IMG/VR virus record: IMGVR_UViG_3300025117_000058
Location: 1 to 64,000 of that record
DNA: 64,000 nt
Origin: a virus
Direction: 5' to 3' (one strand)
Part shown: piece after piece, positions 21,788 through 50,391 of the stretch
Numbering within the stretch: the stretch's first letter is position 1
Layout of the letters: the number at the start of each line of letters is the position of its first letter
Made by a program: the position numbers and the translations under genes
The notes under the pieces: model-generated
The model's database searches: none
What the model was told of the DNA's origin: nothing
What the model saw: the letters and a program-made list of their open reading frames with translations, nothing else

Positions 21788-22051
21788 GGTAAGATAGATT
21801 CTATATATGTTGAAACTTATAGTTATGGATGTGGCTTTAAAATAATTTTATGGATTGGAAAATTTTCCAAGTCAGTAGAAAAAATAAACAGTAAGAATTA
21901 TATTAAATTGGGTTGTAGTGCTAATCCTTATAATAATGACTGTCTAACCGTGATAAACGAAGAACTATTTTACTCTGGTTCAATTTTTGCAGAACTAAAA
22001 CAAATAAAATCACTACCAATTATTAATAATGACAAATCTTATTCCGATTGA
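21788..22051 (+). pseudogene. Open frame without start codon after the RHH gene
   Basis: After the RHH stop (TAA 21785-21787) the same frame stays open for ~87 codons to 22051, overlapping the recombinase start. The composition looks coding (VETYSYGCGFKIILWIGKF). No ATG or GTG occurs near its beginning. It may be a decayed gene, a stop-readthrough extension, or chance. Confidence 0.3.
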
Positions 22052-22994
22052 TAATCAGCAAAATAATCAAATAAAGCTATACAAGGAAACTTATTTTGAT
22101 CTGGTTGATAGATTTCTCGCTGTCTCAGACATTGTTCCAAATTCTAAAAAATTCTACAAAAAAATATTGAGATATTGGTATGAATGGTGTGAGGAAAATA
22201 ACGTTACTACTCCGACAAGGGAACACATATTGATTTATAAAAATTCACTAAATATTAAATCTCGATATACTCAGGCAGCTTACTTATCTGTTGTTGGAGA
22301 ATTCTATAATTGGCTCGATATTGAAGGTATTTATAAAGATATTACAAAAGGAATCAAGGTTAAACATAGACAGGTCGATCAGCATACCAGAAGTAAATTA
22401 ACTCTTGAAGAAATTCACGCACTGTTAAACAGTATCGACACCAGCACTTTTACAGGAAGTAGAGATTTTGCTATGATAAATCTTATGGTGCGAACTGGAT
22501 TAAGAATGATTGAATTGAACAGAGCAGATGTGAACGACTTTTTCTTTTTAAATGATAGAAGGGTTTTGTACGTACAAGGCAAGGGACGTATCCAGAAAGA
22601 CGAGTTTGTGATTATTAATGAAGAAACGTACAAACCTTTGGAAAATTATATAAATACGAGACAATTTTTATCAGTTACCAATAACAATCAACCTCTTTTC
22701 GTTTCTCATAGTATTCGAGGTTCTGTAAACGATCCAAACAAGACGAATCGGAGGCTAACCGTAAACGCTATCAGATATATTGTGTGGACAAGGCTAAAGC
22801 AAGCCGGTATTAAGCGAAAAGACATTGTGGGGCATTCGCTTAGACATACAACGGCAACACTCGCTATAGATGCTGGCGCTACCATAGAAGAGGTTCAAGC
22901 ACTAATGAGACATAAAGACCCTCGAACTACCATGATTTATATTAAAGAAAGAAACAGGTTTAAAAATGCGGCAGAAGATAAGATAAAAATTTAA
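22029..22994 (+). CDS. Tyrosine recombinase (phage integrase, XerC/D-like)
   Basis: The 321-residue protein has an N-terminal SAM-like core-binding domain (residues ~15-110) and a complete catalytic domain. The active-site set is visible: Arg159 in TGLRMIEL, Lys185 in GKGR, His269-x-x-Arg272 in HSLRH, His295 in MRHKDPRT, and the nucleophile Tyr304. It would integrate and excise the element at att sites. A palindrome built like a Xer core site lies 14 bp past its stop codon. It follows the RHH gene and operator region, as in a lysogeny module. Confidence 0.92.
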   Translation: MTNLIPIDNQQNNQIKLYKETYFDLVDRFLAVSDIVPNSKKFYKKILRYWYEWCEENNVTTPTREHILIYKNSLNIKSRYTQAAYLSVVGEFYNWLDIEGIYKDITKGIKVKHRQVDQHTRSKLTLEEIHALLNSIDTSTFTGSRDFAMINLMVRTGLRMIELNRADVNDFFFLNDRRVLYVQGKGRIQKDEFVIINEETYKPLENYINTRQFLSVTNNNQPLFVSHSIRGSVNDPNKTNRRLTVNAIRYIVWTRLKQAGIKRKDIVGHSLRHTTATLAIDAGATIEEVQALMRHKDPRTTMIYIKERNRFKNAAEDKIKI

Positions 22995-23556: not shown

Positions 23557-24117
23557 ATGGAAAAAACAGTAACGATAGAATTAATTACTCCGATGCTGGG
23601 AACAATCCCAAAAAACAAAGAAATCTACGCCGATTTTATCGCAACGAAAAATCCCGCAGGTATAGATAATGAAGAAATACAGACTATTGAAGAAATTGAA
23701 GAAAAAGGCTGGACGGGATTTCATTCTGATGAACAAGGGCTGTTTGTTTATGATTATTTTATCAAAGGATTCCTTAAAAATGCTGGCAATGTTTTGAAGG
23801 AAGAGCTTAAAATTAAAGCGTTAAGAAGCAAGATAAGTGATTTTCTTTTCGTAAAGCCTAGAAAAATCTACATTGGACAGAAAGTGGACGGGGTTCTCGA
23901 AAGACCATTAAGAGGACAGACGGCACAAGGACAGCGAGTAACTCTCATACGGAGTGATTTTGTAAAAGAAGGAACAATGATTACCTTCCAGCTGAAATTA
24001 TTGCCTCACAAAGAACTTACCTGGGAAGTGATAGATTCTTTGTGGATGTATGGAGAAGATCAAGGACTTGGACAATTTAGAAACGGTGGTTATGGTAGAT
24101 TTAAAATTATTGCGTAA
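23557..24117 (+). CDS. RAMP-like (Cas7/Csm3-type fold) phage protein
   Basis: This 186-residue protein begins TVTIELITPMLGTIPKNKE and ends with LGQFRNGGYGRFKI. The glycine-rich end resembles the G-loop of RAMP (ferredoxin-like Cas7/Csm3/Cmr) proteins. The centre has DYFIKGFLKNAGNVLKE and RPLRGQTAQGQRVTL. I recognise the overall sequence as a family in phages of low-GC bacteria without assigned function. No CRISPR array or other cas gene is present. A GGT-pentamer array starts at its stop codon. Start follows AAGGAACAAAAATC. Confidence 0.55.
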   Translation: MEKTVTIELITPMLGTIPKNKEIYADFIATKNPAGIDNEEIQTIEEIEEKGWTGFHSDEQGLFVYDYFIKGFLKNAGNVLKEELKIKALRSKISDFLFVKPRKIYIGQKVDGVLERPLRGQTAQGQRVTLIRSDFVKEGTMITFQLKLLPHKELTWEVIDSLWMYGEDQGLGQFRNGGYGRFKIIA

Positions 24118-24470
24118 TGGTACGGTGCTGTGGTGTTTGGTTTAGGTTTAGTACGATGAGGTAAAGTGCGGCAAAAGTAATGTGTCGTTTAGCGGGACGA
24201 AGTAATGGTCAGGCAAGGACAGGTCTTGTTTGGTAGTGTAATGGTTTGGTGTTGTGGCGTATGATTTAATGTAGCAAGGTAATAATAGTGTGTGGTTCGT
24301 CCTGGCAGGGTGATGGTTGGGTATAGTGCAGTGAAGTCCAGTAATGGTGTGGTAAAGCGATGTGGGGCTAGGGTTAGGTGCGGTAAAATTCTATATGGTT
24401 TCAGTGTGGTGGTGTTATGTACGGTAGAATGGTGTGGTCGCGCAAGGTAATGGTAAGGTACGGTGCATTA
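24117..24470 (+). repeat. Degenerate GGT pentamer array
   Basis: About 350 bp without a coding frame consist of loose 5-mers of the form NNGGT (for example ATGGT ACGGT, GAGGT AAAGT, AAGGT ACGGT) with occasional 6-base slips. The plus strand is G- and T-rich and C-poor, unlike its AT-rich surroundings. The array begins right at the stop codon of the RAMP-like gene and ends before the folded RNA at 24514. Confidence 0.7.
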
Positions 24471-24513
24471 GAAGAAGAAAAAAGAAAATTATTAACAGAA
24501 CTAATACAAAACG

Positions 24514-24660
24514 GATAGATAGTAACTTGTCATCCAAAACGCAAGAACGTATCATAAGGTAAGCATTGCGTGATGCAGGGAGATACTAAAAAGAATTAGC
24601 CGGAAATAAACTAGAATAAAACCGGCTACGACTCTTTCAATAGTTACTATCTATCTTTTT
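24514..24660 (+). ncRNA. Candidate folded RNA closed by a 14-bp perfect stem
   Basis: GATAGATAGTAACT (24514-24527) pairs perfectly with AGTTACTATCTATC (24642-24655), followed by TTTTT. Inside are AGCCGG/CCGGCT, ACGCAA/TTGCGT and GCAT/ATGC helices. The closing stem plus T run would also end transcription. No coding frame spans it. It matches no RNA family I know. Confidence 0.55.
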
Positions 24661-31034: not shown

Positions 31035-31160
31035 ATGAAACGTATCAATTGCCATTTAACAAATCTTCAAATCAAACAATTAAAAAAACTATCAAAAGAA
31101 GTTGGGCTGTCGGTTGCTGAAATTATTCGCCGAGCAATAGATGAATATATAACAAAATGA
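31035..31160 (+). CDS. Ribbon-helix-helix regulator of the second tnpB
   Basis: The 41-residue protein has the RHH pattern: strand (KRINCHLTNLQIKQL), helix 1 (KKLSKEVG), helix 2 (SVAEIIRRAIDEYI). Its stop overlaps the tnpB start (ATGA). With the promoter just upstream and almost no leader, it probably represses its own promoter and so controls tnpB. Confidence 0.75.
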   Translation: MKRINCHLTNLQIKQLKKLSKEVGLSVAEIIRRAIDEYITK

Positions 31161-32281
31161 AAAAGACATTTCTTTATCGTGCGAAAATAAACAGACAGAC
31201 AGAATCTAATTGCTGTCGATGGATTGAAATTTGTCGTGATGTTTATAACTCCGCATTAGGGCAAAGAATTAATACGTACAAGGAAGCCGGAAAATCTATA
31301 ACCAAAAACAATCAAGTAACACAATTACCTTTAATTAAAAAAGATTTTCCAAGTATTAAGATAGTTAGCTCTCAAACACTTCAAGATGTGATTGAACGTC
31401 TCGATAAAGCCTATAAAGCATTTTTTCGTAGAGTAAAGTTTGGAGAAAAAGCCGGATTTCCCCGTTTTAAGAATCGAAACAGCTATAATTCCTTCACCCT
31501 TAAACAGCATGGATATAAACTTGATGGTAGGTATTTATATATTAAAAACATTGGCAGGTTCAAACTCTTTCTTTCCAGACCGATTGAAGGAAACGTCAAA
31601 ACCGTTACCATCAGAAAGATGCCTACAGGTAAATGGTATGTATCTTTTTCTTGTGATGATGTTTCTGCCAAGCAAGTCTCAATAACCGATAAAATCATAG
31701 GAATAGACGTAGGAATTAAAAATTTCTGTGTTGACAGCGAAGGAACATGCGTTAAAAACCCTAAATTTTTATTTGATTCTGAAAAAGAACTTAGACGTAA
31801 ACAGAGAAAACTTTCCAGAAGAAAAAAGTGTTCTAGCCACTGGAACAAAGCAAAAATATTAGTTGCTAAAGTGCATGAAAAAATAACAAATCAAAGAAAA
31901 GACTTTTTACATAAGATTACCAATAAATATATTAATAATTTTCAAACTATTTATATTGAAGATTTAAAGATTAAAAATATGGTTAAAAATAGATATTTGA
32001 GCAAATCTATTTCAGACAGTAGTTGGGGTACTTTCTTTCGGTTTCTTTCTTATAAAGCTGAAAATGCTGGTAGGAAAGTAATTAAGGTGAACCCTGCCAA
32101 TACTTCACAAAAATGTTCTACTTGCGGAGAAAAAGTCCAAAAATCTTTATCTGTTCGTATACATTCGTGTTCTTTTTGTGGCTTGAAAATAGATAGAGAT
32201 TTGAATGCTGCAATAAATATAAGTCAGGATGGGCAGTCCTGTCAGGCATTAACTAATGATATGTTAGAATTGGTAGCCTGA
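31157..32281 (+). CDS. tnpB: TnpB, second RNA-guided nuclease
   Basis: The 374-residue protein is full length with RuvC motifs GIDVG (Asp184), IEDLK (Glu268) and DRDLNAA (346-352), and zinc ligands Cys320, Cys323, Cys338 and Cys341. It is clearly different from the TnpB at 5499, so it arrived separately. No Y1 transposase gene is near. I do not see clear hairpin ends like those of the first element. A 5-bp TTTGA/TCAAA repeat after the stop (near 32290-32315) is a weak right-end candidate. It may be a domesticated or immobile TnpB under RHH control. Confidence 0.92.
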   Translation: MKKTFLYRAKINRQTESNCCRWIEICRDVYNSALGQRINTYKEAGKSITKNNQVTQLPLIKKDFPSIKIVSSQTLQDVIERLDKAYKAFFRRVKFGEKAGFPRFKNRNSYNSFTLKQHGYKLDGRYLYIKNIGRFKLFLSRPIEGNVKTVTIRKMPTGKWYVSFSCDDVSAKQVSITDKIIGIDVGIKNFCVDSEGTCVKNPKFLFDSEKELRRKQRKLSRRKKCSSHWNKAKILVAKVHEKITNQRKDFLHKITNKYINNFQTIYIEDLKIKNMVKNRYLSKSISDSSWGTFFRFLSYKAENAGRKVIKVNPANTSQKCSTCGEKVQKSLSVRIHSCSFCGLKIDRDLNAAINISQDGQSCQALTNDMLELVA

Positions 32282-49252: not shown

Positions 49253-50059
49253 GTGGCTACAGTAAAATCTGAGAAAAGAGTTTCAACATATCATGGGATT
49301 GAAAACTTATTCACCCCTGATGTTTTTTTCAACTTGATGGGCTGGACAGACAGAGAATGTCATACGGAAAGAATAAGATATGCAATTAGTAATTTTCATT
49401 ATGCAGCAGGAGAAAAATTATCTTTTATTTTTGGAACTGAAAAGTTTGGAAATATTACAAGGGCAATAACAAGTTTGGGTGTTTTGTCTTTGGCTAGGTT
49501 TCACAATATTACCAATGAACAGATAGAAAAAATCATAGAAGATAGTAAGGGGAAAGGTTTTGAATTATTGAAAAAAGAAATTGAGTATATTTGTTCATGT
49601 AGAAATATACATGCAGATAAAATAAAAGAAAAATTAACCGATATTACAAGTTTGTATGGTGGTAATAAATATAATAATATTTTGCGTACAATGCTGAACA
49701 TGAATGCAAATGATAGTGATATGGAAAACAGAAAAACAATAAATATCAACGCATTCCAGTTTAATACTATTTGCGAAAAAGAATTGAATGAAAATATGTA
49801 TAAATTGCAAAGAAATAGCGAAAATTGCGTTGTGAATATTTATATATCTAAAATCGTAAGCCATATCAATAATAAAATAAGAACTAACTATAGGCGAAAC
49901 GATACAAAATCTGAAATATGTCGTGGAGCGCACGTTGCAGGTTTGTATATTGTTTCAAAATGGATAATAAATGGTACATTGCCAAAGTACGATGAATATT
50001 ATTCGGCAAGTTTATTGTCTGATATTAAAGATGTTGTCTATTCTAATATTAAAGGATGA
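49253..50059 (+). CDS. 268-residue helical protein, unknown
   Basis: Starts GTG-GCT-ACA behind AAAGGAACGGTG. The sequence is almost wholly helical with CSCRNIHADKIKEKL and a basic patch (KIRTNYRRNDTK). No motif recognised. Its size and isolation among tiny genes make it worth a structure prediction. It is followed directly by an 8-bp-period repeat. Confidence 0.5.
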   Translation: MATVKSEKRVSTYHGIENLFTPDVFFNLMGWTDRECHTERIRYAISNFHYAAGEKLSFIFGTEKFGNITRAITSLGVLSLARFHNITNEQIEKIIEDSKGKGFELLKKEIEYICSCRNIHADKIKEKLTDITSLYGGNKYNNILRTMLNMNANDSDMENRKTININAFQFNTICEKELNENMYKLQRNSENCVVNIYISKIVSHINNKIRTNYRRNDTKSEICRGAHVAGLYIVSKWIINGTLPKYDEYYSASLLSDIKDVVYSNIKG

Positions 50060-50062
50060 AAA

Positions 50063-50370
50063 TGGCTAAACGTCTTTATGTCTTTATGACTTTATGTCTT
50101 TATGTCTTTATGGCTGTACAAAGGGATGGAAATCAAAAATTTTCATCCGTTTATATGGCTAAACGTCTTTATGTCTTTATGACTTTATGTCTATATGACC
50201 GAATGGTCAAATGTCTTTATGACTTTATGGCTAGTATAAAGGGATGCTAGAAACGTGTAACGTAGTAAGGAAAATTTTTTCCTGTGTTTTTGTTAAATAA
50301 GTTGATAATGGCTAAATGACTGTATGGCTGTATGACTATGTGGCTAAATGACTAAATGGCTAAATGACTA
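50063..50370 (+). repeat. Degenerate 8-bp-period tandem array
   Basis: Two blocks (about 50063-50230 and 50307-50370) consist of 8-mers like TATGTCTT, TATGACTT, TATGGCTG and AATGACTA in head-to-tail order. Between them is a non-repeated stretch with a TTTTTT run. The array can be read as protein, but this is an artefact of the period. Together with its flanks this fills the gap from 50060 to 50391. Confidence 0.7.
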
Positions 50371-50391
50371 AAAAGAACGAGGTACTTAAAA

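Follow-up and report, generated by a model that had tools for sequence, protein, structure and literature searches.

The window analysed here, a stretch of 64,000 nt that covers positions 1 to 64,000 of IMG/VR record IMGVR_UViG_3300025117_000058, is part of a virus record of 78,468 bp and carries a small gene directly followed by a degenerate tandem array (Table 1). Pfam, PHROGs and NCBIfam assign no family to the protein. Its AlphaFold model (pLDDT 90) was used in a fold search, in which the best PDB matches were the Cas7 of type VII CRISPR (E = 3.6e-8) and Csm subunits including Csm3 (about 1e-6); the search also matched, with an E-value of 2.9e-17, a phage protein that carries the annotation Cas system-associated RAMP. 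In addition, a search of solved structures with a profile of 81 homologues matched Cas7 (E = 2e-4) and Csm4 (E = 0.02), both matches spanning the C-terminal stretch that holds the glycine-rich loop (G-loop). Judged by its predicted structure, the window protein is a small single-RRM RAMP with a G-loop and a Cas7/Csm3-type fold.

Table 1. Positions of the RAMP gene and of the parts of the adjacent array in the window.
Feature	Position	Strand	Description	Basis
vipr-like gene	23557..24117	+	single-domain RAMP, 186 aa, C-terminal glycine-rich loop (GLGQFRNGGYGRF)	model, profile match, G-loop alignment with SUSP1 Vipr
vrRNA-like array	24116..24464	+	NNNGY pentamers punctuated by NNNGGY hexamers	autocorrelation and unit model
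First hexamer	24116..24121	+	AATGGT, overlaps the stop codon	sequence
Cassette 1	24122..24147	+	ACG GCT GGT TTG + hexamer TTAGGT	unit parse; boundary after the hexamer placed from text continuity
Cassette 2	24148..24178	+	TTA ACG GAG AAA GCG + hexamer AAAAGT	unit parse
Cassette 3	24179..24209	+	AAT GTC TTA GGG GAA + hexamer AATGGT	unit parse
Cassette 4	24210..24245	+	CAG AAG CAG CTT TTG AGT + hexamer AATGGT	unit parse
Cassette 5	24246..24291	+	TTG GTT GGC ATG TTA GTA AAG (AAT) + irregular hexamer TAGTGT	unit parse
Cassette 6	24292..24317	+	GTG TCG CTG AGG + hexamer GATGGT	unit parse
Cassette 7	24318..24348	+	TGG ATA GCA GAA CCA + hexamer AATGGT	unit parse
Cassette 8	24349..24374	+	GTG AAA GAT GGG + hexamer TAGGGT	unit parse
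Irregular 3′ array part	24375..24464	+	two pentamers, 39 unparsed bases, 7 pentamers + hexamer	unit parse

The array begins inside the stop codon of the gene (TAATGG) and fades out at about 24464. Between 24117 and 24470, GG pairs occur 14 times at a lag of 5, whereas dinucleotide shuffles give 5.28 ± 2.15 (z = 4.05). Of all 350-bp stretches on the two strands of the 64 kb, this one has the highest count, the runner-up having 8. The autocorrelation at lag 26 is likewise high (z = 3.9), because the 6-base units scattered among the pentamers are regularly placed. Indeed, a trained unit model parses positions 24111-24384 as 44 pentamers and 9 hexamers and recognises an additional array piece at 24424-24464, the 39 bases in between (24385-24423) being irregular. 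Over 354 array bases we counted 131 G, 112 T, 79 A and 32 C, in a genome with a GC content of 33%. These results uphold an earlier note, drawn from the sequence alone, that had called the gene RAMP-like, judged the array too regular for chance and proposed a 5-bp autocorrelation as a formal check, and described the strand as G/T-rich and C-poor in an AT-rich genome. The note had also described the units as NNGGT 5-mers with 6-base slips starting at the stop codon; the array, its start and the slips stand, while the GGT core has to be replaced by a simple G-Y, the base preceding the G being nearly free. Rfam returned nothing above threshold at the window locus, and in a search of 18 loci it detected no hammerhead ribozyme, a tRNA being the sole match. 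Just 3′ of the array, a 19-bp inverted repeat (24509-24527 and 24642-24660; AAACGGATAGATAGTAACT and AGTTACTATCTATCTTTTT; 89% complementary) encloses 114 bp.

Phage records, IMG/VR and MAGs, largely of Clostridia, supplied homologues of the gene, most of them on IMG/VR contigs; none was found among plasmids. With the unit model trained on non-redundant loci, an array was detected at 183 of the 188 homologous loci, and in the non-redundant set it adjoins the gene on the gene's strand. When the 300 bp located 3′ of the gene are summed over 92 non-redundant loci, strong peaks appear on the coding strand at lags 5, 10, 15, 21 and 26, and in the same sum the gene body is devoid of them. At about 20 loci the array lies directly upstream of the gene instead of downstream. 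Furthermore, 34 of the 37 blocks of at least 20 units in 1.5 Mb of whole phage contigs adjoin a vipr gene, a count that includes two blocks that the script scored as distant for no other reason than a tile edge between block and gene. Thus, the note's statement that arrays of this kind come after this gene family in phages was accurate, and the linkage is present in essentially all homologues that have enough flanking DNA: the RAMP gene and the array are one system, as the note had suggested. Five of the 188 loci lack an array, four of them truncated: three are truncated homologues or lie at contig ends (L024, L025, L075) and one contig stops just past the gene (L198). The fifth (L205), which retains only a repeat remnant of about 25 bp after the stop codon, is the sole exception that a contig end does not explain. 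In two vipr-carrying phages, three short array-like blocks of 22-27 units lie away from any vipr gene (L170, 805-942 and 9085-9219; L124, 5170-5283); they are possible secondary vrRNA loci or false positives.

Across the family, the core is restricted to G-Y and each repeat therefore has three variable bases, the third of which, just before the G, has an entropy of 1.94 bits, similar to that of the preceding two. The 6-base slips are regular NNNGGY hexamers, biased to AAN (AANGGM), which recur about every five pentamers and divide the arrays into cassettes of about 31 nt. The number of pentamers between hexamers peaks at 4, 5 and 6, where 541, 621 and 327 unique cassettes were counted; random placement would give about 154, 128 and 106. 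Arrays are continuous and reach about 290 units. Whole cassettes are common to close relatives and occur there in different contexts, as in a modular turnover by reshuffling, and within shared cassettes the variable bases are kept while the Y position changes most. That the array is a decaying satellite or a slippage product devoid of function is a reading to which the irregular stretch at 24385-24423 lends something. It is nevertheless already contradicted by the comparative data and we hold it to be extremely improbable: the array stands beside the gene and on its strand in nearly every homologue, the hexamers keep a regular period, the variable bases have a near-maximal entropy, and slippage would yield neighbouring units that resemble each other.

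The array could also act as a binding site, an RNA structure or a regulatory element in the 3′ UTR, with a role in autoregulation, as a G-quadruplex or as a decoy, and not as a source of guides. Its start at the stop codon, which makes co-transcription with the gene probable, is consistent with such a role, and a regular 5-nt spacing would presumably also suit a multimeric RNA-binding protein. We consider this unlikely, because the family conserves no more than one G per repeat and hence no potential to form G-quadruplexes, because the array lies upstream of the gene at the loci mentioned above, and because the variable bases look informative, being preserved in shared cassettes and composing a text similar to genomic DNA (see below). 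Binding array, G-rich structure and decoy, the mechanisms put forward in the earlier note, are thus not supported, and a guide RNA array of the VIPR kind, absent from the note's list, fits better.

VIPR systems, as described in the main text of a recent preprint (PMC13142463; bioRxiv 2026.04.26.720920), consist of a phage RAMP and of vrRNAs made of tandem GGY/NN repeats. These vrRNAs are reported there to recognise double-stranded DNA by their NN bases with a skip of 1 nt, to act against competing phages and to be aimed at lysogeny regulators; the preprint gives sRNA-seq, pull-down, binding and silencing data (PMC13142463). According to the same text, the GGY/NN code "or a related consensus" is common to all seven types; staggered arrays whose vrRNAs overlap are also mentioned. 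The closest described type is type II, from Escherichia phage SUSP1 and a Pseudomonas fulva prophage (PMC13142463), which has in common with the window locus a phage RAMP of 186-195 aa with a C-terminal G-loop and, next to its gene on the same strand, non-coding 5-nt tandem repeats that combine a conserved G-Y core with hypervariable bases. On re-reading the SUSP1 locus, we found a 195-aa RAMP with a similar G-loop, flanked by runs of 12-16 YNNGG units, of which 45 of 55 carry G at position 3; its alignment with the window protein covers 46 C-terminal columns only (hhalign E = 1e-4 in a single comparison, probability 59%).

The two systems differ in their arrays. SUSP1 has separate vrRNAs of 12-16 uninterrupted repeats with a GGY core and a 3′ tail, and one accessory gene, whereas the family of the window has a G-Y core only, hexamers and long continuous arrays; inspection of array ends recognised no structured 3′ tail, and no conserved accessory gene (vap) was found among 92 loci, where the commonest neighbours are Xre-type regulators (23) and SSB (13). 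Since the YNNGG repeats of type II run uninterrupted for 9-16 units before a structured 3′ tail, and a hexamer here interrupts about every five pentamers, we do not file the locus under type II. Class 1 CRISPR-Cas systems (type VII Cas7, type III Csm3) share the RAMP fold of their backbone subunits and modular arrays of guide cassettes. They differ by a periodicity of 6 nt instead of 5, and the window locus has a single gene, with neither cas1/cas2 nor a nuclease gene seen nearby and no identical direct repeats; no direct-repeat array of the CRISPR kind occurs at the locus, the neighbours being an integrase and proteins of unknown function. The small RAMP with a G-loop, its phage origin and the adjacent 5-nt repeats, whose G-Y core falls under the "related consensus", are those of a VIPR system in the broad sense, and the locus is best filed there rather than as a binding array, a decoy or a satellite. 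By analogy with the preprint, we give a probability of roughly 0.87 to a phage-borne RNA-guided system of the VIPR type, whose cassettes would be guides pairing with rival DNA; on partial evidence we further propose that these guides are delimited by hexamers and read at all three variable bases. Systems of this class have been described since 2026; what is new with respect to the preprint's main text is the architecture of the cassettes and a triplet code that may be contiguous.

How the variable bases are read can be approached from their order. When G-Y is deleted and the triplets are joined, the joined text shows, where these bases were removed, the same dinucleotide preferences as phage DNA. 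Using exact permutation within loci, we found that base 3 is linked to base 1 of the next unit with z = 5.1 at genomic lag 1, versus 2.3 for a raw distance of 3; with stricter duplicate removal the link falls to z = 2.6, and in the subclade of the window alone, with only 987 pairs, it is 0.4. The contiguity signal in dinucleotides is therefore moderate, and is not established for the window subclade. The text also continues into the hexamer (z = 4.3; 2.3 in the stricter analysis) and not beyond it (z = -0.8 after the hexamer; -1.4 when the hexamer is skipped), and we thus placed the guide boundary after the hexamer. In the larger family this evidence favours contiguous decoding and suggests a code other than the published 1-nt skip, unproven though it is, above all for the window subclade. 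The variant code that we regard as somewhat the better bet would have NNNGY reading three adjacent target bases with G-Y flipped out and hexamers ending the guides, so that each array would hold dozens of independent guides of 15-24 nt in cassettes like those of CRISPR.

Alternatively, the locus may follow the published rule, the first two variable bases pairing and the third being left unread, with vrRNAs that span several cassettes and hexamers that are tolerated slips. The code common to the seven types and the staggered arrays reported in the main text of PMC13142463 are compatible with it, and seeds of NN with a 1-nt skip matched 1.76 Mb of related phages 543 times, versus 458-497 for other spacings, with no convincing target among the matches. 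Against it, the third base varies as much as the first two and is linked to the next repeat across G-Y, and the continuity of the text ends after each hexamer. We take the published rule seriously here as the less probable code. A contiguous triplet code, if true, would be a decoding rule unlike the 1-nt skip and nearer to that of CRISPR.

Decoded contiguously, guides point to one convincing candidate target family, the ImmA/IrrE-like genes. The guides GAA TGG CAG GCA AAC (L009) and TGG AAT GGC AGG CAA ACG CAC (L017) overlap by 15 bases in different registers, from raw sequences that differ, and both decode to the conserved EWQAN region of these genes (15/15 and 21/21 database matches, respectively), making them two independent candidates for the same target. 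Searched against IMG/VR with one position left open, the L017 21-mer gave a single match, of 21/21 bases, on contig L186; the match takes in all seven third bases, which speaks against the 1-nt skip. The L186 protein has an HExxH motif followed by WMEWQANALTPRIQMP, a Cro/C1-type HTH domain and a weak Peptidase_M78 (ImmA/IrrE) match (E = 0.016) under the Pfam cut-off. The only match of the L009 15-mer among 150 genomes of the L017 family is in frame, in a gene reading DWEEWQANTLGAAILLP. Proteases of the ImmA type control prophage repressors. A lysogeny-control gene as target thus fits both a conflict between phages and the lysogeny regulators targeted in the preprint. No other guide of L009 or L017 matches the L186 contig, which we therefore consider a carrier of a target homologue rather than a demonstrated victim.

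Other searches gave less. The window array has no target in its own 78 kb genome, and the first 21 decoded bases of cassette 5, its longest guide, have no exact match in IMG/VR. Single-guide scans of IMG/VR returned two chance matches for an L002 guide and none for an L018 guide, and when long decoded guides were compared by BLAST with 2.3 Gb of phage records, one query returned a single 21-nt match at chance level and the other none. Ten decoding rules applied to 1.76 Mb of related phages revealed no significant natural target. Overlaps between guides out of register, which had appeared to be a strong signal, reached p of about 0.01-0.03 with 80 more loci and depended on duplicate removal; as a class they are only suggestive. 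Walker-A motifs in decoded guides (e.g. MATGTGKT) were discarded, their enrichment being too low to count. One decoded guide (L071 3627, GCCGGTGTTCGAACACCGACA) resembles a tRNA T-arm and may have a tRNA or an attachment site as its target.

Building on the RAMP fold, the array, its near-invariant linkage to the gene, the cassette architecture and the modular turnover of cassettes, all directly seen here, we can propose the following mechanism. As in the systems of the preprint, the 186-aa RAMP (Vipr) would bind the transcript of the array beside its gene. A cassette, with its four to seven 5-nt repeats, would be one guide, bounded after its NNNGGY hexamer as the text continuity partly indicates, and the G-Y core of each repeat would be held by one protein subunit. 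The variable bases would then pair with the double-stranded DNA of a rival phage or prophage and block its transcription, again by analogy with the preprint, and all three bases per repeat would be read along a contiguous target if the partial evidence for the variant code is borne out.

VIPR has been proposed as the ancestor, in viruses, from which CRISPR arose. Found in phages of gut Clostridia and other hosts, a large family that delimits its cassettes and may pair contiguously would stand as an intermediate between VIPR and the arrays of CRISPR. Such a family would make the reading code directly testable, and the targets of guides would become readable from hundreds of uncultivated phages.

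Other features of the window deserve mention. A tyrosine integrase gene (22029-22994), some 0.6 kb upstream of the vipr gene, suggests a temperate phage; a transposase gene (phrog_506; 31157-32278) is found further downstream. The ORF at 43242-44810 matches thymidylate synthase PHROGs (phrog_85 and others) toward both ends and has an HNH endonuclease similarity in its middle (residues about 215-370), as if it contained an internal endonuclease domain or an intein. Finally, downstream of the ORF at 49253-50059, three short arrays of a degenerate 8-bp unit, ATGNCTNW (ATGTCTTT, ATGACTTT, ATGGCTAA), occupy 50068-50115, 50155-50235 and 50305-50375, the first two being followed by AAAGGGATG; they resemble iterons or some other element built of tandem units in which certain positions vary.
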